A program made the translations under genes and the position numbers. From Branchiostoma floridae (taxonomy: Eukaryota; Chordata; Leptocardii; Amphioxiformes; Branchiostomatidae), in contig NC_049990.1 of NCBI RefSeq assembly GCF_000003815.2, forward strand, positions 6,355,497-6,419,496: a stretch of DNA of 64,000 nt. Reading direction: 5' to 3'. Positions 13,894 through 38,612 of this stretch are shown piece by piece. The notes beneath the pieces are model-generated. The model did no database searches. It worked only from the letters and a program-made list of their open reading frames with translations, and was not told the DNA's origin. Each line of letters opens with the position of its first letter. Position 1 is the stretch's first letter.

Positions 13894-14278
13894 AGGCCAC
13901 ACTGACTTAATTTTATGGATGGCATCCTCGCGCACATTGATTTTCGCCTGTTCTCCAAAAATTTAAAAAAATGTAGCCACATGTCACTCGATAGCATCCC
14001 TGGTCAATCTGGATTTTATGCTTGCCAGAAGATCTGCTCTCCAGGGTAAGGGGGAATTGCAATAAAGACATTATTGAAATAGCGACGATTGTGTCGTATA
14101 GTCTTATTGGAGGTTAACATATGTCTACAAACCAAGCCTGCGAAAGAATGGTCTGGATGTTTAGTCCTCTGGTTTAGCAGCACTTTCTATTTTTCTTTTG
14201 GATCTTTTTTTTTCGCCCGGGCGCATTAGTTTGGAGTCTCCAGAGGAAGTCATCCATAAAATCAAGTCGGTGTGGCCT
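13894..14278. mobile_element. Family A MITE, copy 2 (385 bp)
   Basis: AGGCCACACTGACTTAATTT at the left, inverted GTCGGTGTGGCCT at the right. The interior matches copy 1 (2351-2759), including ATGTGGCCACAT-like and CGCATTAGT motifs. Inserted in copy 2 of the segmental duplication. Confidence 0.85.
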
Positions 14279-20359: not shown

Positions 20360-23300
20360 ATGTCTACCTGCGATGTAGTTGTTGTAGGTGCTGGTATCAG
20401 TGGTGAGTTTGCTTTTCCCTTATTGGTTTAATTATTTGAATATTTTTGTTGGCAATATGTTGAAAGTTATACTACTTGCCAGAAAGGTGTATTGATTGAA
20501 TTGTTTTCAGATCGATATTTGAACTGCATGTAAGTTTACTTGTCACTAACATTGAATACAGTAGAGACCGTTTAATTGCATATTTCATGCAATTATCCAT
20601 GTGGTGCCAAAGCGATTAGTTATCCAGCTGGACAGCACCTACCACGGGATTTGTAATCTCCAAGCAGATCCTACAATAGCATAAGATAGTACCAAACTGG
20701 CCAAGAAGTTTAGTCAGCCAAGAGGTGTCCCCGGTAGCAAAACACACTCCTAGGCCGGCTTCACTCCTCTAGCAGCTTTTGATACTATCTTATGCTACCG
20801 TAGGATCTGCTTGGAGATTAGGGATTTGGGAATTCCAGAGTCTCTTGGTTGGGTGACCCAACATAAAGTTCTCAAAGCAGTTTGCTCCTATCAAGGACGT
20901 TATATAACATCCTTGCTCCTATCATACATGCACATCGAACAAGTAGTAGTAGTTATTTTAATTCAATTTGCTTTTATTGCATTCTAATGATTTTCCATTT
21001 CCTCACAGGTCTCAGTGCAGCAAAGCTCCTCCATGAGAAAGGTCTGAATGTGTTGGTCCTGGAGGCCAGAGACAGGGTGGGAGGCCGCACCTGCACTGCA
21101 TATGTGAGAATACCTTTGTTTTGATCATACGTTAATGTATATTCAGTAGAAACCCGAGTGTACATTGCATAGATGTCTTTACTAGTAACCTGGAATTTGT
21201 CTGTGAAATTTGATGCAGTTACCATTAACCCTAGGGATTAGGCCCGGACACTATTTATAAACTATAATTATGGTTTAGAAAAAGGTGGGGAATTTTGGCC
21301 ATCTCTTTTACTATACTATAAAATTATCATGCAACATTACTGGCAAGGCTTTGTTTATAAAGTTAATTATCAATTAAGATATTCGAGTGACTTTCCTCAC
21401 TTAATTATGAAAAAAAACGCACAAGTAGTAACAAGGTTGGAAATTTCTTATCCTTAGTGACTCAGTTAGTACTAGGATACTTTGTGGTAACTATATTAAG
21501 CATATGAAGTTTTCATTGCTGGACACTATTGAACTATAGTTCAATGATTAAGTAACCATGAAAGATATCATGGTGATCATATTACCCAATGACAATTATT
21601 CCTGTCGTTGAATCCTATTTCTAAGAATCAATTAGATTGGCTGAGCCCCTTCTAACTTTTTTGCTTTTTTGCAGGGAGAAGGTTTCGGTTACTGTGATGT
21701 TGGCGGGTCGTACGTCGGCCCCACTCAAAACAGACTCCTCCGTCTGTCCAAAGAGCTGGGGATAGAGACATACAAGATGTACGATAAAGGGCAGTACATT
21801 TTCATGACTGGAGTGAGTATGATTGGTACACCCTTTATAAAAATGAAAGCATCCCAGACGGTTTAGATGCCTGTCCAGAGTGTCCTAGGGCAGCCCTGCT
21901 TGTCTAAACACAGTTTAAGTCATCCACAAACTGATGCCTCAGAGAAACAGCTTTTTGTTGTATCTTATTCTACATGTCTCAAATTGGCTTTTATGTGTAC
22001 CAAACATCGACTCAGATGGACCATGTAAGCATGATATATGTTGTTTATAAAAAAAAATTGTGTTCAAGGCCAGCGGTGCCTATAGCACGTTAAAGGTGAA
22101 GGGCTAGCAACCTCTCCCTACAAAACAAGCAGCTAAAAACAGCAAGAAAACTTCCTGCCCTTCGTGCCTCTAGACACGACGAGGGTCGGAACAAATAAAC
22201 TAGACTCATTGATTTTTGTGTGGTTTGACTAAGGGTTAAGGACTAACACTGGCTTAAATGTCAAGGAGTGATGTATGAAGTGATCTCTACTTGATAGTTG
22301 AGCAGCCATGACATATAGAGACCTGTAGAGGCTAACCCTGATGCTGGGGATGACGATAGTACAAAATACTTAAAGCCAACATTTTGCATTGATTGATAAT
22401 TTCTGTCAAAAGTTACACCAAGGTTTCAGGCATGAAGAATATTCTACTGTAACATTGTTTTTTAAGGGAGGTTTTATTAGTAAATGACTGTTACTTTGCG
22501 TTAATGCAGTAGTATACTGTACATGTAAATGGATTTAAGTTCGCGGGGATTTAAATTCATGTTAGCCGGAAAATAGATTGTTCGCAGTGGTTTTGAGTTT
22601 GTGGTAGCGCTAAGAATCTACTGTAGTCACATACTGTCATGGAAAAAATATTCGTGGTGGTTTTGAGTTAGCCATGAAATGGCAATGCAACATAAAACCA
22701 CTGCAAACATCTCTGCATAATTTACAGTATTAGTGAAATGTTGTGGAAGAAAAAAGACCAATACTTAAATGCTCAATTTTCTACACTTTTATGATGTGAT
22801 GTGATGAATCTAAATAAATGTTAATGTTAACACAGGGCAGACCTACAGAGTACAAGCCCCTCCCAACCTTCTGGAACCCGTTCAAAACCATGGACCTGCT
22901 CCACATGCTCAGGCTCATAGATGAGTATGGGAGCAAAGTAAGTTACTTTGTACTATTTTACTAACAAAACACAATTACTGTTACAGTAATGTTTACTACA
23001 GTTGCTGTAATGCTAGTCCTAGACCTTTAACTGAGTCATGCATTGATCTTGTAGCTACTCTGAAATTCATGACACCACTGAATATACATTTTGATTTGTG
23101 CATTTCTAATGTACTGTATTACTACTGTACTACAGAATTGTTTTTCCTTGTAGAAAATAAAGTCCACACAAAAGTAACCGAATTTACAGTACATGTACTT
23201 AGACCAGATACTTAGGAATGTAGCAGTTCTGCAATAAGTGACGGTTAGGAGAGTACTAAAAATGGCTATCATAGTATAAATCAGTGGCAGTAGAGTATTA

Positions 23301-24982
23301 CAGACTTTTTAAAATCCTGCCGATGACATAAATCTCTACAGATCCCAGCTGATGCACCCTGGGATTGCCCTCATGCTGAGGAGTGGGACCGGATGACGAT
23401 GAAGGAATTCTGGGAAAAACACTGCTGGACTCAGTGAGTAACAATGAAGTTACGATTAACGCTAGTTCACCTTTATCCGTTGGGTAACCTATATCCGCTG
23501 CTTTGAAACACTGTAATTTGGGGTAACAAGTCTACAAATTGCAATTTGAAACCATCGTCCATCAACTTGATATTTCAGAATACCCTGTTTTTAAAAACAA
23601 ATGATATAAGTTACCCCTGGTTAAAGGAGAACTAGTATTTAGAAAGAAAATATTACCCAATTTTTTCAATAAGGAGATCAATATTTATCAGGAACTCTAA
23701 CCTAAATTGAGCTGGATCACTTTCTTATCAAATTATGATTTGAAAATAATCTCATGACATTGAATTTTCCTTCAGGACTGCGATCACGTTTGGTGACTTG
23801 TTGGTGGAGTCGTTTGTGACGGCAAAGTCCCACCAAGTCTCCATGCTGTGGTTCCTGTGGTACATTAAACAGTGTGGAGGTAAGCTTTATCTCTAAGCTT
23901 CATAGTTTTTGGTAACTTGGAAAGGGTCTTGTATACTGTGTTGTAGTATCCTAACAGTTAATGTTGGTCTAAGCATTAGGAGATTAAGATCCTAAGCTTT
24001 CTCTTTCAATTGGTCATTCGATAAGCATGCTAACATTTCTGATAAATAAAAATAAATGTGTTGTTGCATTTCTTTGATTAGACCTAATGGATCAAGCAAG
24101 TCAATAGGTCCTACTGTTGACCTTTGTGTAGGAAAGCCACATACATGTACATGCATTTATGTTAAACTAGTTTTTGGTCAGTTGTTTTCCTTATTGGGTG
24201 AGTTTGATTTTATATCAGACCACTTAAATCCAAATCCATGTCCACTGCAGGTTTTGACAGGTGCTGTTCAACAGTAAATGGTGGACAGGTAAGGCACACT
24301 ACAATGTAGTTTGTTCTACAACTGGTGTTAAATGCATGATTGTGTTTTACAAGGCATTGCATTACAGGCAATACATTGTCAAGCATAAAAGATGTAAATT
24401 AATTGCAACAAAGAATTGGCTATCTGTGTAGCTTGTACCTTATTTTGGATTGCCATACATGCATCGTGGATGTCCCTGTAGTTCAACTGCCTCTCAGTTG
24501 AGCTCCTGGTTCCAATGATTGGTAACTGGGAGACCTGGGCGTAATCCTTGGTAAGGCATCTGCAACCATCTTTTGGAAGGGATGGAATGTTTGAGGAGGT
24601 GCCTTAAGCATGTAAAAGGAGAAACGCTAATTTTCAAGCCTACCCTGCTACTGAAACAGCAGGCCTTAGGATACTTGCTACCCTTTATGCCATTAGATAC
24701 TATAAGGTCCAATGGAACAAAAGGCACAGAAATTCTATCTGCTTATTGTTGTCAATAGTTCAATTATCTCATGTTATTAGGAAAGGAAGTTTCTGGGTGG
24801 ATCTCAGCAGATCAGCCTGAGGATGCAGGAGTTGTTGGGGGACCGTGTGAGGCTGAACCAGCCAGTGGTGAGGGTGGAGCAAGGAAAGGATGGAGTGACA
24901 CTGTACACAGGCACACAGGACAGGTATCAGGTGTGTATGGGTCCATCTGACATCTCACACAGTATATTGTATATTAGAGCGT

Positions 24983-25028
<46 letters not shown>

Positions 25029-28000
25029 ACACACACACACACACAAACCCATATGATTGTATGCACGCACATGCAGATAAGAGCATGCACAAATTATTCA
25101 TTATCATGGCATTTACCTTTCTTACAACATATTTCTAAGTAACTTTCTGTTCTTTGCCTCAAGTGATTATTTTGAAACTTTTTTTGTCATTTTCAGGCTC
25201 GTTATGTGGTGTTTTCCATCCCTGTGCCCCTGCAACTGAAAGTGACCTTTGACCCCCCTCTGCCGACGCCGCGGTACCAGTTGATCCAGCGAGTTCCGAT
25301 GGGCTCTGTGCTGAAGATCATGATGTACTACGAGCGGCCATTCTGGAGAGAAAAAGGTTTTATTTGAATTTCTATCTAGTACCATTCGGCAAATTCTTAT
25401 TGTCACAGTGGTACATTTGTAAATTCATTTATTTTTGCTGGGACTTGATTTCACTTCAGCTTCAGAAAGGAGATTTTTCTATGTCAAGCGTTCATGATGT
25501 TTCATGGATTCATGAAATAAAACCATGTGCAGTTCATGTATTATGAATTATATAGTACTTTGTATTGGTCTCTCCCATATAGCTTGCTTAGTTCGGGCAT
25601 GCAATTTGTTTGAGAAATGTTCTCCATGTTTCTGCATAGGCTACTCTGGTCTGATAATTATAGAAGAAGATGATGCTCCTGTGTGTTTCACTTACGATGA
25701 CACCAAACCGGACGGATCTTACCCTTGTATTATTGGGTAAAATCTTTAATGTCATAATCATAATAAGGCCACACCGACTTAATTTTTGGATGACATCCTC
25801 TGGAGACTCCAAAAGTAATGCACGCGGTGAAAAAAAGAAAAATCCAGCAAAAAAAAAAATGCTGCTAAACCACAGGACAACACATCCAGGCCATTCTTTC
25901 CTGACTTATATTCACCCGTCCTCGAGTAAAACTGTAAGAGATAATCGTCGCCATTTCAATCATGTTTATGTTGCCATTCTTGTTGAACAAGGGCGCTGTG
26001 GCACCATGCACTGACCATTTGCCCCCTTTTGCCCCGCACAGATGCCATTCATAAAATTAAGACAGTGTGGCCTAACATAGTTGACAGCCTATCATAATCA
26101 TAAGAACTAACCAAAGACATTTTTGCGTGATTATGAAAAAAAATCTGTAAATCTCTTAAGGTTTCTCAGGACAGTTAACCATGGTGGAAGCAGATGGCCC
26201 AGTCACCATTACATTTGATGACACCAAGCCAGATGGATCCTACCCTTGTATTGTTGGGTAAAGTTTCGTTGCAAGCTTCTTTAATCTTCATGGAAACCAA
26301 TTGTTTGCTTACTGCAAAATTGATGGGATTTAATTTTGCGGTAGCGGGAAGAAGGACTTTTGCAGTGGTTTTTAATTCGTGTTTCCTTTTGTACTGATGA
26401 AGGCAACAGATGGTTGTTGAAACGTTAACTGAAAAATTAAAGAAGGTAAAATGTGTAATGAAGAATACAGTCTTTGTTCAATTGATCTACCAATCTGGTG
26501 AAACTATTTACAGATCTTGGAAAGGTTCTTCTAAACTGCGGGCAAAATCAGCTTTACCTAAAGAAAACATTTCTAGTTGCCAACTCTCTGACAACTCAGG
26601 TTAGAGGTAACATTCACACACAAAAGAAACCTCAGCCCAGTTTAGCAGAGCCTCTCCAATGTATCTTGTACAGGCCATGGGCAAAGCTCTGTGTAGGAGA
26701 GTGAAAATAGCTGGCTTGTAATCAGTACTGGAATTACTTCGTGATTATTTCATTCATAAAATAAATTTCCATGACTGTGCCATCTTGCTCTGCTGTTTTC
26801 CAATCTGCAGCTTCTAATGTCAACCAAATATTAAACACAAATTAGCGTGGTGAATGCAGCTACCAAGGACGTTATATTCTAAGACTCTTAGTCCTTGCTG
26901 CTACTTTAAAGAAAATTGTACTAATACAGCATCATTAACCCCTGAGGTACTTCAGATATCCTTGTGTTCAAGACACTCTTGAAAGGGCCTTGATAACACC
27001 ATTTTGTTAAATTGACACTCTTATGAGGCAAATGTAACCATAATGAGTAATTTCACCAATCTTATCAAAATCATAATGTCAGCATAAAGTATAGAATTTA
27101 GCTCTGAAAGTGCTCTGAAATAATCAAATCTTAAAGGTTAAAAGATTATCAACTGAATATGCTTATAATTAGAATATGCTTAATAGCCAATCATGCCTAT
27201 TATGAATACTAATAGTTGTAATTCTTGTACTAAATAGTAAGAGGAGGCTTTTAAATCTTAGTCATTGCAACTTCATGTCTAAATCCATTTAAGTTTTATA
27301 CTTAAATTGTTTCAGGATGTATTGACTGCGTGATTATATTTTTCAATGTAGATTTTGCCCAGCTGATAAAGCAGTGCACTTCTCGCAGCTTCCTGAAGAA
27401 GAGAGGTAATTCTGACTGTCCATCACAATAAGCAGTTCAACCAATTATAGCATGGCAATTAGCTGTTAGACCAATGAGAGAATGGCCATCAAATTTTGTT
27501 AACTTAATTTTAGCATATAGCTATATCTTATTTTGATGGAAGTCATGGCTATGGGATCAGTCTATTCTTTATATTTGATAAGCTACCATTCATTATTTTT
27601 TTTAACAGATCTACCATCATAATTTGTTTTTAAAGATACATTACTCTGACTGATAATTTGATACATGTGCTAATGATATTTTGCAGAAAGATGCTGATTT
27701 GCAAGAGTTATGCAAAGGCCTTTGGCACAGACGAAGCTTTGAAGGTATATTGTACATATTGTTACATAATTGTAGGAATGTATCTAAAAGATGTCCTTTG
27801 ATTAACAATAGATACAATGTGAAAGAGACACTCTAAGTAAACCAAGCCTGGTATCCATCTTCTTCTGATCACTTCTGTGTCCCCATTCTAATGTTTGTTA
27901 AATACTAAATTAATGTCCCTGTCCCCATTCTAATGTTTGTTCCAGCCAGCATCCGTTTTCCCATCCTTTGACGGAATGCTGCTGGGGACGGAAAAAAAGT

Positions 28001-31000
28001 TAGCCCATTTCGTCCTCTTTGAGCTGAAATCCCTGTGGATTTTTTTACCAAGACAGTAAAAAGTTGAGTGACATTGAACCAGCAAAATTTACCTCTCAAG
28101 ATGCAGGAAATAGCATTTCAGAGGGTCTACATTTCACAATTTTCCTGGGGGAGCATCCCCCGAGAACCCCCTAGGCTCGACAGGACTTCCATTTAAAATC
28201 CAGGGGACGAAAAAAAATTTCAGGCTGGCTAGATTGGTCTTTACATCCTGCATTACTATGGGAATTGAATATTTCTCAAACACAGCGTAAAGTGGTCTGA
28301 ACCCCAGATGCTTTTTCAAACCCTGTAGCGATTTGCCGTTACAAGAAAAGCATGACTGGGAGCCAGACTGAACGATATTTTAGTTGAATATGCAAAATGT
28401 CATTTTTTCGATGGTGTCAGACTGTAAGGCAAGGAAAACGCACTGGAGCTTAAGGATAGGGTGGATATCAGGCTAAATCATACCAACTTATAACTAGGGT
28501 TGCTGCACATGTACTTGTTATTTTCACTCCGCGTACCGTAGGTACGCTTCGAGTGAAAATATTGTTTTCATACCGTTTCTTCTTTCTTTCTTTCTTTCTT
28601 TCTCCTGTCGCGACCTTTAAAGTGATTCCTCTCCGTCGTTCCTGGACCAAATGGCCTGAAATTTGGCACAAGGGTACAGTGGGCCAATACCCAGACCCGT
28701 TTTTCTCATTTTTTTGATAGATACCTTTACAATGATTTTAGGGATGTTTTAAGGTCATTTTCTGGCCCGGCTGTATATTCATGTCTCCCGTGCCCAGGTA
28801 TTACGTCCAGATGACTTGAAAGTTGGTATGATACTGCGTGAGATACTTATTAAAAGGACCCCGGTATTATTTTTGGCCAAACGTCACTTCAAAATCATTT
28901 AAAAGCCAATTTGGCGGGGTATCTACGCATATTTTCACCGAGCTCGCGTTTCGCGCGTGTAACCATATATGGTCACGTTTGCACGTGCGTCCGTTGCACC
29001 ATATATGGTTATGGACGTTTCCGCGCGCGACGTAAGCTGTTTACCTGCAGCTGTGCATTGTGGCTAATTGAATTTAGAAGGGAACCAATATGCGCCTGAC
29101 ACTTAGCGGAAGCGATGACCTGATTGGTCAGCTCGGGTACAGCCAATGAGAAAGGGTTTTTCAACTTAGCGGCTGGGAGTACATATATGTCGCCGGGAAG
29201 AAGTCCGTTAAAAGTAAGTGAAAAATTGTACTGTTTATCTTAAAATTGGCAACAATACACAAACGCAGTAACAAATTTGGGTAACTTGTCGTCGTTATTG
29301 TGTAGTTTTTGTTTGATTTACCCACGTTTAGAGTGTCTGGATAAGCGATACCGTAGCGTCAGAATGCCGCGGTAAGTGGGAGCGCATGCATGGAATATTG
29401 TTGCGCTTTGCAGTGACTGATGAGACAGTACTAGTATTGTATCATCAAGCTTTATTGTCACGACAAAAAGTACAGTCAATTTTGTATGGCCAACTTTAAA
29501 CTGCAACGAAAAAAAGAAAGAATACAGAGTATATCTTACAATTCTACTAATCAAACATTATGATATGATTCTACTAATTATCGGTGAAAAGTGTACAGTA
29601 GTTCTCTTCCATAGTAACGTTATATGATAGTACAGATTTTCAAGGGCAAATCTACTAGTACAAACGTTACACTATGTTGTGAATTGTCCATTCAGGTTGG
29701 TTGTACAAGAAATATTATGTAATCAGGTGTGGCTTTTTTTCTAATCAACAAACAAAAAGGATCTTCCTTTTACTCTGGGTGGCAGTACATGAAATTACAC
29801 AAAGGAAATACTAATTATTGTATTCTATTCTATTTTCTACTGGAGGAAGATGAAACACCAACAGGACTGTTGTGCAGACAGGTGGGGTTGTGCCTTGATA
29901 GAAAGTGTCAATTTGACAGTGCTAAATTCATTATTGGTCGGGTGCTCGAACTCAACTAATTCCACAAAGTCTGGCCTGTCAGAGAACACAATAGTCAACT
30001 GGCTACAAAGGTGACATCAACAGACACCAAGGAGAGGATAGCAAAGTCACGTACAAGAAGTGTTACTGTGACAGAAACACCAGCTTTATGTATGATTAGG
30101 CTATTTGGGACAATATTGTAACTATTAAACTAAGTGACAATTAGAGATATTATTATACCAACCATGAGTTCAAACATTGTATTTCATGACAGACATGAAT
30201 AAGTTTTTATGACTTTTCAGACACCACGTCATGGTATATGCTGTGTAATTTAGTAATGCACTGTACTACAAACAGTTAATCAAAATAATTAGATAATCAT
30301 AAACTGATTAGTTTATGTGGAAAATAAATGGGACGTTAAGTTTATAACAGACGTATAATAACTGCAATTGCTGCATCCTTTTTTCAGACAAAAAGCATGC
30401 AAAACATTCAGATATGCAAAACAGACTCCGTGCAAACATATAGTTGCTAATTAGCTTTGTTCATCAATATAATGTATTAGCTGATTAACTCTAAGTATAA
30501 AAACAGAATGCGATCCTTTTTGTCTGAATACAATGTGCATAAATTTATATGTATTTGTAATGATAATGTAATTGCAGTGCAGCCATGATATCCTATTGGA
30601 TTTTTTTTTTAAATTGCACTTCGCTAAAAACGGCTAATAAGCATATCTTGGTAAAGAGTTAAAAGTGTAGTGCAGTTTGTTTGGAGAGGTCTGCTTGTAT
30701 GAAGATTAGTTATGAATAAGTGCAGTAATTGTCCTTGCCTTGTGTAAATAAGCAGGAAAACTTTAATCATAACCACGCTATTGTCTGCTGTGGGTACGTA
30801 ATACCAACGTTTAGGGTCGCATAACGTGTTGCATCTGTAGAAAATTTCCGTTTGTGACATACATTTTTTTTTCTTGAAGTAAAACGGTGCTTGCTTTGTT
30901 AATGTGTGAAACATTAGCATGCTGTGTGCGTGTTGTAATAAAGAAATAAAAGTTTGATTACCGTACAGTACTCACATTGGATTTTTCAAGTTCAATTTTG

Positions 31001-34000
31001 GAAAAGTCCATTTTTGCATAAAGGGGAGAGCGGAGTGAAAATAGCTGAATTTGCTCCTAAGCAAATACCGGCCTTTCTAGTTAAGAAAGTTCAGGAGTTT
31101 TGGTTGCAAAGTCAGCAGAAAATGATAAAAAGAAACTAACACATACTGACTCATTAAAGCACTGCATTTTCTGTGATGATATTGATTTAGAAGTGTATAC
31201 AATGTTATGTGCTAAACTGACAATTTTTTCAGTGATAGTTGTTTGATTCAATACAATGTGATGAACTATCAACAGCCTACAGATTGATTTTGGACAAATA
31301 TTGCACTTTGGACAAATGGTTCGTCTGTTATGTTACCCTAGCCAACTGCCTACGTGGAGAAAAACTGGATGCAAGAAGAGTACTCAGGCGGCTGCTATAC
31401 CATCTATTTTCCACCAGGGGTCCTCACTAACTTTGGAAAGTATGTTTATCGTTAACTGTTCTTAGTGGTAGAAAACTACAAGTTGAGGACAAAAAATATT
31501 TGATAAACCCTTTGATCTGCATCAATTTTGCCCTGTCATACACCACGAAAATCGGCCAAACAGTTTGCGAGCTCTAATTCCTTTTTACCAGTGTTACCCT
31601 CGGTGTTCTCTCCATTTTTGCGCAACTATTAGGTATATATCATGTATGTAATTATTAAGAAGTTATGACTACAATGCAGTGTTTGTTTTAAATTTTACAA
31701 TCATTATGCAGATGGCTTTAATAGCTATGATGCTGAGTGTTTTTTGCATGCAATTTTGTCTGTAGACTAATAAGATAACTGACAAGCTGCTTCCAAAGAA
31801 CATTTTGCATCATGACAGCCATTTAAACACTTCAAACCTAAGATGTCATGCTGTGTTATATTGATTGACAGGGTACTAAGGGAGCCGTTTGGACGTATCT
31901 ACTTTGCTGGAACGGAGACGGCCACCCATTGGTCAGGTTACATGGAGGGGGCGGTCCAGGCAGGGGAGAGGGCAGCTAGGGAGGTGAGGGGGAAATTAAT
32001 TAATCATTCTACCGTATACATTGTAGTGTATAGTGGTTTACAGAAATACCGGTAGTCACAAATCAATGTTAACGGAACTGATTTATAATTCATTTATAAA
32101 ATTTCCCACGCACATTGTTTTCTATAGGGAGCTGAGGAGGAAATACAAAATTTAGTTGGAATCTACCTGAACAATTAATAAGCTGTACTAAAACATCTAC
32201 TAGAGGCTTTTCATTATGTACAGCAAAATGACTGGGGTCATTGAAGTATACATTTTGTACATTCATCTTCAGTCAGAGAATCACCAATTATCAATAATTA
32301 TAATACTAGAAATATTTCTTTAAGCTTAGAAAGTCTAATATTCTCTGACATTGGTCAGAGGCCAAACCTACAGCAGTTTTAACCTCCACCCTTTTTATCA
32401 GAGCCTCCTCAGTCTATAAGTACAGCCAAACCTATCCTGAACCAAAGGACTGAGCAAAAATAGTTCAGGTGGTTCCTCCCAACAAGTTGGTTGGATGGTT
32501 GATGTAGGAGTATAAGGCCACACCGATTTAATTTCTGGTTCACGGATTCGCTCGCTCCTATTTTCTGGAAAAAAAAAATAGAAATAAAAATTACCACTCA
32601 GCAAATTTTCACCATTAATGAAACCATTCACCAACTTTCTGGTGTAGCAAATTGGGCTTTATATTATAAGCTCCTTAAAATGTGGGTACAGGTGCTGTTA
32701 CTGTACAAAAATAGTGTTTTTGTACTTTTTTCAAGCTGAAAACTTTTTTTCTTTATGTTTTGGATTAGCCGTTACCTTTACCCCAACCATTTTACAATTT
32801 TTATTTTTATTTCGCCCTCTCGCTCCATATTTTTTATGAAAAAATCCTTGAACCAAGAAATTAAATTGGTGTGGCCTAATGCCCATTTTCATTTGGGTGA
32901 GGCGAGGGGGGAAATCATTCTACGAGCAAAGCCAGAAATAGTTGCAATTTTTCATTCATGTCCCAGCTTCCAAAGATCAACAAGCACTTGTCTACCATTA
33001 GAAGTCATGACAATAAGTAGCATGTCCAGAACATGAGATTTCAATGAATACAGGAAGTTCTTTATAAAGTACCACAGAAAGTCACTAGAAGGTCCATAAT
33101 AAATGTTTACCTTCATTTTGGTGAAACCTCTCACTCACTCACTCATCCTCGCCGCATATCAGACTTCGCTGAGGCGGGCCGTCATCGTTCTCAAAGTCTT
33201 CCCACCCACATACCAAATGTCATAAAGATCTATCCACAGCTTCATGCACTATTGAGGTACAACAAAATCAATTCTCTCAGGGATTTATCAGTGCAATTTT
33301 CTGAATATTTTCTAGCAATCACAATATTGTGAAAACGTCTCCATCTCTGCAGTGGGGCCACTAACTCAATACAGCGTAAATGTTCAACTTTTGTCATATT
33401 CACCTTCTGCTGTCTTAAAAAAAAGGAATAAAGGGGACTGTCAAAACTGTTTCGACAGTCCCCTCTAAGTTATTATAAGTCTTAGAATAACTAGAATGGT
33501 CAAAAATTCACTGGTTGATGATTCTCATAATCCATACAAGGGTGGTGTCTTCAGCACCAAGGACAGGGATGGTGTATTTTCATTCTTGAGGGATTCTTTT
33601 GTAGCCTGAGTTCCATCCGGGTAGAAGCTACATAATACTACCAGGAAGAAGCATGGCAAAATTAACTGCCTCTATGTACCTTTATACATCCTCTGTTGTT
33701 CCTTTCTTTCCTGTTAGTAATTGCCCAAAAATGTACTGATTATCCTTTTTTTGTCTGTTTCAGACCCTAAATGCAATGGGTCGCATCTCAGCAGACCAGA
33801 TATGGCAAGAGGAGCCGGAATCTAAGGTACATTCTACAACTTTTTTCTTCTTTTCTGATTATGGATGGAAACAACATGTAAGTCAAGAAATATGTAAAAC
33901 TTCTGTTTGCAACAGTTTCCAAATCCCCTGTCACAGTCAGCAAAAAATTGCCAACTGGTTTCAAGGCTTTATTTTTGCCAGTGTGCTGCGAATCCCTTTC

Positions 34001-34191
34001 CTTGCAATAACGTGACTTAGTTTAGCAATCACAACAAATACACATTACTTTATCAGGACTGTCCAGCACTACCGTTTGAGACGACGTTCTTGCAGCGTAA
34101 CGCCCCGTCTGTCGGAGGGTTCCTGAAGTTCCTGGGTCTGACACCCATTGTCGCAGGCGTGGGGGCATTTGCTCTGAAGGGTAAACTGTAG
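20360..34191 (+). CDS. MAO: Monoamine oxidase (flavin-containing), complete, 16 exons, 512 aa
   Basis: Exons: 20360-20402, 21009-21103, 21675-21812, 22836-22937, 23342-23433, 23776-23879, 24251-24288, 24781-24930, 25197-25356, 25640-25736 (or 26170-26257), 27352-27405, 27687-27744, 31342-31439, 31872-31983, 33764-33826, 34057-34191. Phases fit throughout. It oxidatively deaminates amines (serotonin, dopamine, tyramine, phenylethylamine) at the mitochondrial outer membrane. Visible: the FAD-binding [15 protein letters not shown] at the N-terminus and [15 protein letters not shown] with the covalent FAD Cys395; Lys294 (human MAO-B Lys296); aromatic-cage Tyr396 and Tyr433; and a hydrophobic C-terminal tail anchor. 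The residue matching MAO-B Ile199/MAO-A Phe208 is Cys197. Length fits human MAO (520-527). Candidate poly(A) signals lie at 35505, 35744 and 35861. Confidence 0.97.
20656..20819. mobile_element. Family D MITE, copy 1 (MAO intron 1)
   Basis: Inverted repeat of about 37 bp with two mismatches: AATCTCCAAGCAGATCCTAC at the left and its complement at the right. The interior has CACACTCCTAGGCCGGCTTC. Two more copies lie at 42353-42519 and 42530-42920. Confidence 0.85.
22513..22735. repeat. Family F repeat (MAO intron 3)
   Basis: Runs from TACTGTACATGTAAATGG to AATTTACAGTATTA, with GTTCGCxGTGGTTTTGAGTT repeated inside. Related copies or fragments lie at 12345, 26300-26390, 38095-38285 (inverted), 46013-46125 and about 63793-63870. 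Confidence 0.7.
23461..23635. mobile_element. Family E MITE, copy 1 (MAO intron 5)
   Basis: Begins GCTAGTTCACCTTTATCCG and ends in a degenerate inverted form (GGTTAAAGGAGAACTAGT). A better preserved copy is at 34620-34823; half copies lie at 44308-44410 and 48474-48600. Confidence 0.7.
24984..25046. repeat. (CA)n microsatellite (MAO intron 8)
   Basis: CA dinucleotides with one GTGCG interruption near 25021. Confidence 0.95.
25766..26073. mobile_element. Family A MITE, copy 3 (308 bp)
   Basis: AGGCCACACCGACTTAATTT at the left and GACAGTGTGGCCT at the right. It lies between MAO exons 10a and 10b. Confidence 0.85.
26170..26257 (+). CDS. MAO: MAO alternative exon 10b (mutually exclusive with 25640-25736)
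   Basis: TTTCTCAG acceptor, 88 nt, then GG and a GTAAAG donor. It enters in phase 1 and leaves in phase 2, as does exon 10a. It encodes [14 protein letters not shown] then [15 protein letters not shown]; exon 10a encodes [17 protein letters not shown] then [15 protein letters not shown]. The DDTKPDG halves are also close at DNA level, so this is a duplicated exon. Exons 10a (97 nt) and 10b (88 nt) both leave remainder 1, so using both would break the frame. Exon 10b gives a 509-residue enzyme. At the place of human MAO-B Tyr326/MAO-A Ile335, 10a has Phe324 and 10b has Ile321. A family A MITE separates the two. Confidence 0.85.
28528..28604. repeat. Hairpin TTTTCACTC...GAGTGAAAA followed by a TTTC microsatellite
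   Basis: TTTTCACTC (28528) pairs with GAGTGAAAA (ending 28560), with an inner GTACC/GGTAC pair. A short (TTTC)n run follows. Probably part of an unnamed repeat in the 3.6-kb MAO intron 12. Confidence 0.6.
28963..29214 (+). promoter_or_regulatory. Candidate regulatory element with two perfect CArG boxes (MAO intron 12)
   Basis: CCATATATGG occurs at 28963-28972 and 28999-29008, 36 bp apart; both fit the SRF site CC(A/T)6GG. CG-rich sequence surrounds them. Downstream are ATTGG (29123) and CCAAT (29141), and a strong donor-like AAAAGTAAGTG near 29211. This could be an internal promoter or a repeat. Function is not shown. Confidence 0.3.
32515..32877. mobile_element. Family A MITE, copy 4 (363 bp), diverged
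   Basis: AGGCCACACCGATTTAATTT at the left, AATTGGTGTGGCCT at the right. The inverted ends extend further than in the other copies (TTCTGGTTCACGGATT), while the interior differs. It lies in MAO intron 14. Confidence 0.75.
33432..33464. repeat. Perfect 11-bp hairpin AGGGGACTGTC/GACAGTCCCCT
   Basis: Stem of 11 bp with an 11-nt loop in MAO intron 14. A hairpin of similar design (AGGGGAGTCGGC) is at 51806-51854. Confidence 0.7.
33535..33730. repeat. Dispersed repeat (family C), copy 1
   Basis: About 200 bp (TTCAGCACCAAGGACAGGG to CTTTCCTGTTAGTAATTGC), nearly identical to 37600-37797 in the neighbouring gene. The close match suggests recent spread. Confidence 0.8.
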
Positions 34192-36357: not shown

Positions 36358-38612
36358 ATGGCAAACGTTTACGAACAGGCTTGGGGATCTGGCATACAGA
36401 TACGAGTCATCGATCCGGATCAGAACGTGGATCCGATGGGCGATATTTACGAGCAGGCTTGTGAATATAACATCCCGATCCAGATCCCTCTGGATCCAGA
36501 TCAAAATGTAGATCTGGAGGGAGATGTCTATGAGCAGGCTTGCGATTGGAGATCCAATGTCCAGATCCAAGCCCCAAGTCTGGATCAGAATATAGATCTG
36601 GTGGAAGATGTCTACGAGCAGGCTTGCGATTGGAGATCCGACGTCCAGATCCATGCCCCGGGTCAGGATCAGAATCCGGATCCCAATAGAGAGATGGTTT
36701 ACGAGCAGGCTTGCGATTGGGGACCTGGGATCCCAACGCAAGCCCCGGATCCAAATCAGGACGCAGATCCAGTGGGAGGGGTCTACGAGCAGGCCTGGGG
36801 ATCTAATGTCCAGATCCAAGGCTGTCCTGGTCAGGATCAGAATATCGATCCACGCCTGTGGATCCCACTGAGGGAGCGTCGTGGCCGGGAAGGCTTCGGG
36901 ACGACCGGGCGCAGCGGTAACGTGCCGCACGGTCGGCCTGCCCGCGACCGAAGCCCGGTGTTGGTGTTCGCGACGGTGCCCGGGGGGCCGGACGGAGCAA
37001 CAAGCGACTCACCGGAACCGGAACCGGCTGGACCGGTACCCGACCCTGCGCCGGATGGAACCGACCCTGCCCCAGGTGGACCGCAACCGGGAGAGGTTCT
37101 GAACCCACTGTATGTCTCTGATCTCCCTCCAGGTAAGCACTCTATTTTGCATTATGTATTTACCACTCACTCAGATATGCATTCACCCACACTCAAACAT
37201 TGCTTGCTCACACTTGCTCACACACTCATTTACTCTCATTCACTCACACACACACACACACACCATTCGCAATCGCTAACACGTGCTCACACACTTATTC
37301 ACTCATATTGTTTCACACAGTCAATCATATTTGTAACTCTCATTCACACAATCACCCACTCTCTCATCACCCACATACACATACACAACATTCGCTCACG
37401 CTCACTCATTTTCTGATTCACTCGCTCACCATCACACTCATTCTTTTGCTTTATTGCTTTATTGTTTCTGTTAGCTATTTTCATAAGTTCTAAAGCAGAA
37501 AATATTCATACCTTTATACTGTTTTGTAGGTGTTTTTATTCCATGTGTACAGCACATGTGTAGACCTACAGGAAGGAATATATAATACAATTATAACCCT
37601 TACAAGGATGATGTTTTCAGCACCAGGGACAGGGATGGTGTATTTTCATTCTTGAGGGATTCTTTTGTAGCCTGGGTTCCATCCGGCTAGAAGTTGCATA
37701 ATACTACCAGGAAGAAGCATGGCACAATTAACTGCCTCTATGTACCTTTATACATCCTATGTTATTCCTTTCTTTCCTGTTAGTAATTGCACAAAAAGCC
37801 CCGAAAAGAAACTAAAAACCTTATTAATAAGCTTGTTGTCTTTGAATGCATCATTATCGAAACCTTTTTAAACATGGTTGAACAGTCGTGGATGTCTGAA
37901 GTGTGCATACCTCAGAAATTACTGTTGCTGCACAAGTAAATCTCCTTAAATTCATTGTTTATTTATTTATTTGGCGGAACTGTTATGATTAGTGGCAATA
38001 TTATGGATGTTACCAGGTACTAGTACACGATCATGCACTTGATTAAGAATACAAGTACTTCTGTACAGTACATGCAGAAATGTTTTTGTGTTCTCATTTT
38101 TGCAAGGCTACTTCAATGCAAATGCAAATACAAAACCACTGTGAACATTTTTCCATGACAGTATGTGACTACAGTGTATGGCGCTACCGCAAACTCAAAA
38201 CCACTGAGAACACTACATTTTCCCTGCTACTGCGAAATGAAATCGCCGCTAACGTTAAATGAATAATTGAATTTACAGTAAATGACCTGTATCTTTTACT
38301 TCTTTAGGCAATGTCCGAAACAACGTGGTCTGTAAAGGTGGGTTGTCACTCTGCCGTCTGGTCTGCATCGTCGTGGGAACCATCGCCATAGCAACACTGG
38401 CAGTGCCTCTCACTCTGATGGAAATGCAATCCTCCTACCAGGATAATGCAGGGGTAAGAGTTATCGTTTCCCCTGTATTTGTCTTTATAGCTGTTGACTG
38501 CACACCTTTATTTGTACTATTGGGTTTCTTGATAGATTGCTTGATTGATTAATCTATCATTTGCACATTCATGTTATTGCTTATTAGCTTTGCCAAGAAG
38601 GTTATGTTTTAT

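Follow-up and report, generated by a model that had tools for sequence, protein, structure and literature searches.

The question raised by the locus described here is whether a monoamine oxidase (MAO) gene of Branchiostoma floridae, in which coding exon 10 is present in two copies (10a upstream and 10b downstream), uses these copies as alternatives, and whether the two resulting enzymes would differ in their substrate pockets. The DNA analysed, referred to as the window, is a stretch of 64,000 nt corresponding to positions 6355497-6419496 of contig C12 in a 513-Mb genome; coordinates are window positions unless the contig is named. Our reading, which we consider probable, is that exon 10 is an old tandem duplicate whose copies are spliced one at a time, such that the gene would encode two full-length MAOs with different pockets.

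The gene occupies positions 20360-34191 of the plus strand and has 16 coding exons, whose ends were placed by eye at GT-AG sites; the protein is 512 aa long with either copy of exon 10. The remaining coding exons, all on the plus strand and common to both predicted isoforms, are exons 1-5 (20360-20402, 21009-21103, 21675-21812, 22836-22937, 23342-23433), exons 6-9 (23776-23879, 24251-24288, 24781-24930, 25197-25356) and exons 11-16 (27352-27405, 27687-27744, 31342-31439, 31872-31983, 33764-33826, 34057-34191). A tandem repeat with a period of 84 nt (2.6 copies, 84% matches) lies downstream of the gene at 36499-36720; the one frame of it that was read contains stops.

The product of this gene is a monoamine oxidase (flavin amine oxidase), as it matches both MAO-A and MAO-B over nearly its full length and contains the Pfam Amino_oxidase domain (PF01593), which scores 280 bits with 10a, 278.4 with the long form of 10b and 275 with the short form. 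In the 10a form, its best relatives of solved structure are MAO-B (5e-203; chain 1gos, residues 3-503, presumably the human enzyme) and MAO-A (7e-197). Exon 13 encodes SGGCY, and Cys395 stands at the place of the flavin-linking Cys, which in MAO-A we take to be Cys406. Both this residue and the aromatic cage are present, as Cys395, Tyr396 and Tyr433 (MAO-A Cys406, Tyr407 and Tyr444), and these three residues together with Tyr59 and Gln204, all outside exon 10, are identical in human MAO-A (P0108) and green-monkey MAO-B (P0012). The assignment of the MAO-A cage to Tyr407/Tyr444 follows PMC9571839, in the part of that paper available to us. Among the matches listed, the closest is a B. lanceolatum protein annotated as 'amine oxidase B-like isoform X2' (P0001), with 94% identity over 97% of the length. 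Sequence comparisons were made with 122 related, mostly vertebrate, proteins, namely 3 from a 10b-word search and the best 120 of 7,924 matches, with one protein in both sets. In a tree of 29 rows, consisting of the window protein and 28 hand-picked members of this set, the window protein clusters with the B. lanceolatum and B. belcheri proteins with support of 100/100.

The two copies of exon 10 are homologous, adjacent and of equal phase at both entry and exit. Exon 10a (25640-25736, plus strand) is 97 nt long and encodes 33 residues, including Phe324 at the position of MAO-B Tyr326 and MAO-A Ile335. Exon 10b in its long form (26161-26257, plus strand) is also 97 nt long and encodes 33 residues, with Ile324 at the same position. 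A search with blastn of 10a against the gene recovers 10b (41 nt, 3e-10), and when the window is scanned on both strands with a profile of the family, 10a scores 76.8 bits, 10b 57.7 and the next best place -21.9. No third copy of exon 10 was found in the gene by tblastn, profile scan or blastn, and no second copy of any other coding exon by blastn within the gene at an E value of 0.01. The initial annotation had already proposed that exon 10 is duplicated with equal phases and a common 12-residue stretch followed by (I/V)G, and blastn, the profile scan and the reading frame agree with it; its placement of 10a at 25640-25736, of the 10b donor after 26257, of the end of exon 9 at 25356 and of the start of exon 11 at 27352 also stands.

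The start of 10b deserves separate consideration. The similarity between the copies forms a block of 104 nt (25638-25741 versus 26159-26262, 71% identity) confined to the exon and its splice sites, and this block places the homologous acceptor AG of 10b at 26159-26160, so that the exon is 97 nt long and its peptide starts with GFSG; the start of the long form was thus set by homology. Nine bases downstream there is a second AG, at 26168-26169, whose use in frame would yield the short form of 10b (26170-26257, plus strand, 88 nt), in which the gate residue is Ile321. With a small weight matrix built from the gene's own 15 acceptors, the start at 26170 scores 9.82 and ranks first among the 90 AGs in 25760-27340, versus 3.88 and rank 9 of 90 for the start at 26161. 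The original proposal that 10b starts at 26170 and is three residues shorter than 10a is thus retained as regards a possible in-frame acceptor with the better score, but not as regards homology, which points to the other AG. The last two places of GFSG are almost invariant in the 122 relatives (Ser or Cys in 122/122, Gly in 120/122), and the five other exon-10 copies read on the contig retain (G/D)-x-(S/C)-G. Both forms of 10b, long and short, are possible.

Of the 97 aligned bases of 10a and 10b, 30 are different, distributed as 4, 8 and 18 over codon positions 1, 2 and 3; 12 of 33 residues differ, and 10b has neither a stop nor an indel. The LWL85 method gives dN = 0.197 and a saturated dS of 2.18 for the pair (dS could not be computed by NG86, and YN00 gave no estimate). 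When the same substitutions are placed at shuffled positions, at most 12 residue changes without a stop are obtained in 0.35% of the trials starting from 10a and in 0.28% starting from 10b. In a simulation started from 10a only, and scored over 32 codons with a family profile from which the amphioxus rows had been removed, neutrally mutated copies reach a mean of 0.5 bits, and 1 in 50,000 attains the 57.7 bits of 10b. On the evidence of these comparisons, which are entirely between the two copies, 10b looks maintained by selection at the protein level. It also contains several unusual residues (Gln312, Thr314, Val316, Gly320, Thr323, Val339), each found in 0 to 4 of the 122 relatives, and scores 19 bits under 10a on the family profile: these features could reflect a relaxed constraint.

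The age of the duplication can be gauged only from identities, as LWL85 gave no value for 4 of the 6 exon-10 pairs. The identity between 10a and 10b (67/97 nt, 21/33 aa) is comparable to that found when 10a is aligned with the corresponding exon of another MAO gene, located some 200 kb away (64/97 nt, 24/33 aa; 10a being slightly closer to the latter at the protein level), suggesting that the exon duplication is old. By this rough measure, based on few sites, it seems to be about as old as the duplication that produced the neighbouring gene, or older; alternatively, 10b may simply have changed faster. Three copies of the exon at 7.98-8.00 Mb of the contig are closer to 10b (16-18/33) than to 10a (14-15/33); since 10a in turn resembles the exon of the neighbouring gene slightly more than it does 10b at the protein level, 10b may predate that gene, or else have changed faster. 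We also considered whether 10b was derived from another MAO gene, and do not favour this origin: 10b shares 21/33 aa with 10a versus 15-19/33 with five other copies.

Reading frame considerations bear directly on how the two copies could be used. That inclusion of both would shift the frame had been anticipated, and is confirmed: translation then stops at codon 359 with the long form of 10b or at codon 356 with the short form. Omission of both copies is equally frame-breaking, with a stop at codon 329. These premature stops lie 323-427 nt upstream of the last exon junction, and stops upstream of that junction are, as a general rule, subject to nonsense-mediated decay, by which transcripts with both copies or neither would be expected to be removed. 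Exon 9 would be joined to one of the two copies, and this copy to exon 11; since only single inclusion gives a full protein, the reading frame itself would enforce exclusivity. The exon 9 donor, AAG/gtttta (25357-25362), immediately upstream of the pair, is the weakest of the 15 donors of the gene, and putative tissue-specific splicing factors acting at this site are the likely means of choice. The hexamer TGCATG is absent from 25357-27351.

Steric crowding of splice sites is another conceivable cause of exclusivity. The two copies are separated by an intron of 424 nt, and the distance from the donor of 10a to a branch-point-like sequence upstream of 10b (26104-26112, plus strand, with CTAAC from 26107; a consensus match only) is 374 nt, at which crowding is unlikely in the present sequence. 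Most of this intron consists of an insert of 308 nt (25766-26073, plus strand) with 21-nt inverted ends that are 90% identical, which we label MITE-like; with the insert removed, the distance from the donor to the branch-point-like site would be 66 nt. The inverted ends, AGGCCACACYGA..., define a family of which four copies with both ends are present in the window, the other three being at 2351-2759, 13894-14278 and 32515-32877. Inspection by eye revealed no clear target-site duplication at the ends of the insert.

What would be exchanged by such splicing is a segment of the substrate pocket. According to the accessible part of PMC9571839, the MAO-A residues in contact with harmine and related inhibitors include Cys323, Ile325, Ile335 and Leu337, from X-ray structures, and Met350, from modelling. 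At the positions of MAO-A 323, 325, 335, 337 and 350, 10a and 10b have respectively Leu/Gln312, Ile/Thr314, Phe/Ile324, Tyr/Phe326 and Ile/Val339. The two copies thus differ at 5 of 5 of the pocket positions named in the available text and at 7 of the other 28 (P = 0.003, in a post hoc test), or at 4 of 4 if Met350 is omitted (P = 0.012). Because these positions are variable across MAOs generally, the enrichment is suggestive and is no proof of adaptation. The swap would alter five pocket positions together, with the flavin site and the shared 12-residue stretch unchanged, and is predicted to leave the enzyme active but with altered preferences for substrates and inhibitors. Mutually exclusive splicing of exon 10 is likely, as judged from the sequence, to retune the pocket, and the products are likely to be two active enzymes that differ in the substrates and inhibitors they prefer.

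A more specific claim of the initial annotation was that 10a makes the enzyme MAO-B-like and 10b MAO-A-like. Its premise is sound, in that the position of MAO-B Tyr326 and MAO-A Ile335 does fall in exon 10 and does differ between the copies, being Phe324 in 10a and an Ile at the aligned place of 10b (Ile324 in the long form, Ile321 in the short one); moreover, Phe324 is aromatic like Tyr326, and Ile324 reproduces Ile335. The gate, however, is formed by a pair of residues. In the part of PMC11833248 at our disposal, the pair is Phe208/Ile335 in MAO-A and Ile199/Tyr326 in MAO-B, and Phe/Leu and Phe/Met in two non-tetrapod enzymes. The partner residue in the amphioxus protein is Cys197, which corresponds to neither Phe208 nor Ile199, and the resulting pairs, Cys197/Phe324 in the 10a form and Cys197/Ile324 in the 10b form, match no human pair: by this gate the 10b form is not of the MAO-A subtype, nor the 10a form of the MAO-B subtype. 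The adjacent Ser169 and Phe170 are likewise unlike both enzymes, and Gln312 and Thr314 of 10b also match neither. Furthermore, the exon-10 gate residue in the 122 mostly vertebrate relatives is Leu in 60, Ile in 32, Tyr in 13, Phe in 9, Val in 4, Met in 3 and Ala in 1, and a subtype label based on a position this variable is weak. A literal switch between MAO-A and MAO-B, which would be a special case of the reading we prefer, is thus unlikely.

The same annotation regarded this as the single MAO gene of an invertebrate chordate, a view that the genome does not support. A protein search of the genome finds at least 63 matching places, including the exons of the gene itself and weaker matches on other contigs (84 of 99 candidates were scored), and at least five further MAO-like copies of exon 10 are present on contig C12, near 6.168, 7.979, 7.992, 8.002 and 12.212 Mb; this survey covered seven stretches of the contig, with the best four matches per strand and stretch and a threshold of 10 bits. 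In the neighbouring MAO gene (C12:6.165-6.175 Mb), whose relatives are P0007, P0025 and P0060, one copy of exon 10 was found, 97 nt long between AG and GT and of the same phase. Three of the copies, at 7.976-8.008 Mb of C12 (L024-L027), have a pocket strand shorter by two residues (TAMSDTGPV and the like), and their reading frame seems to continue into exon 11. Beyond P0001, two or more additional MAO proteins, among them P0007 and P0060, are known from B. lanceolatum.

In related proteins, it is 10a that is represented: P0001 of B. lanceolatum and P0004 of B. belcheri contain this exon with one residue changed. In P0004 (Bbelb_085440), 10a is followed by other sequence instead of exon 11, likely as a result of an error in the gene model. 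The 10b-word search returned P0001, P0002 and P0003, all without 10b; the exon is absent from all 122 related proteins, and a search for protein fragments was also negative. In the collection searched, proteins at least 90% identical are grouped under one representative per cluster, and P0001, which stands for 11 members, is named 'isoform X2', which implies that at least one other isoform is annotated in B. lanceolatum: the 10b form may be among the members of this cluster.

The absence of 10b from these cluster representatives is one of the observations that fit a different account, in which 10b is a relic, formerly used but now unspliced and decaying. The splice sites of 10b, ordinary or weak in score, and the MITE-like insert in the adjoining intron point in the same direction. 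On the other hand, frame, donor and acceptor are intact in spite of saturation at silent sites, and as few as 1 in 50,000 neutral copies are equally MAO-like; a copy idle for long should hold stops or indels, although a recent loss of use would leave no trace. We regard decay as quite unlikely. Alternatively, 10b may be a real alternative exon that gives a poorly active or regulatory MAO, the choice of 10b serving mainly to reduce MAO output. Here Thr314, Val316 and Gly320, or the loss of three residues in the short form, would damage the pocket. The deficit of 19 bits on the family profile is consistent with this account, as is the fact that the better-scoring acceptor drops three residues of GFSG, a motif in which Ser or Cys is retained in 122/122 relatives and the last Gly in 120/122. 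Nevertheless, a divergence rich in silent changes suggests that the protein sequence of 10b has been retained, and the catalytic and flavin residues examined, none of them encoded by exon 10, are intact; we consider low output rather unlikely as the main role of 10b.

Finally, amphioxus genomes are highly heterozygous, and this lends some plausibility to an artefact of assembly, by which two alleles, or the exon of a neighbouring paralogue, were collapsed into one intron. The divergence of 30% with saturated silent sites far exceeds an allelic difference. Both 10a and 10b occur once each among the at least 63 matches in the genome, side by side in this gene, and the identity of 10b to 10a (21/33 aa) is above that to the five other exon-10 copies that were read (15-19/33). 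We find an artefact highly improbable, and return to the reading of two alternatively spliced, functional copies.

If the isoforms of this gene do differ in preference, they would constitute a natural pair of MAOs only 12 residues apart, all in one exon, in which the role of the Tyr326/Ile335 wall could be tested in an otherwise identical protein; exon duplication and gene duplication would then have arrived at similar ends within one enzyme family. To our knowledge, few enzymes have substrate pockets that are switched by splicing. By title and abstract, the open-access literature yielded nothing on such a pocket in a monoamine oxidase, and nothing devoted to an amphioxus MAO. One candidate precedent for mutually exclusive exons in an MAO, PMC12084633, was set aside: within the part available, it names MAO in the reference list only.

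The proposed arrangement can be compared with three known systems. Ketohexokinase has tandem alternative exons 3a and 3c. As described in the accessible portion of PMC11332825, alternative splicing of this one metabolic enzyme gives isozymes, KHK-A and KHK-C, with different substrate affinities, an outcome like that predicted for amphioxus MAO; ketohexokinase belongs to another enzyme family, and its affinities are measured, whereas those of MAO are predicted. In human CYP4F3, alternative exons 4 and 3 give CYP4F3A and CYP4F3B in a tissue-specific manner, with a preference for leukotriene B4 versus arachidonic acid (PMC12380495, from the part available). Here too, one enzyme gene has two alternative coding exons whose swap changes substrate preference, as we predict for MAO; unlike the latter, CYP4F3 is a cytochrome P450, and its splicing and kinetics were measured. 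The third system is that of human MAO-A and MAO-B, members of the same family with two types of pocket that differ at the Ile335/Tyr326 gate (PMC11833248, as far as its text was available). The human pair arose by gene duplication, whereas the predicted amphioxus pair would stem from exon duplication in one gene, with another partner residue at the gate. The same portion of that paper places the MAO-A/MAO-B split in the ancestor of tetrapods and dates it at 352-408 million years ago, so that the event in amphioxus would be a separate one. Whether the splice-switched pocket yields two pharmacologically distinct MAOs, and is thus an independent, long-kept counterpart of the tetrapod split, is in our judgement evenly balanced.
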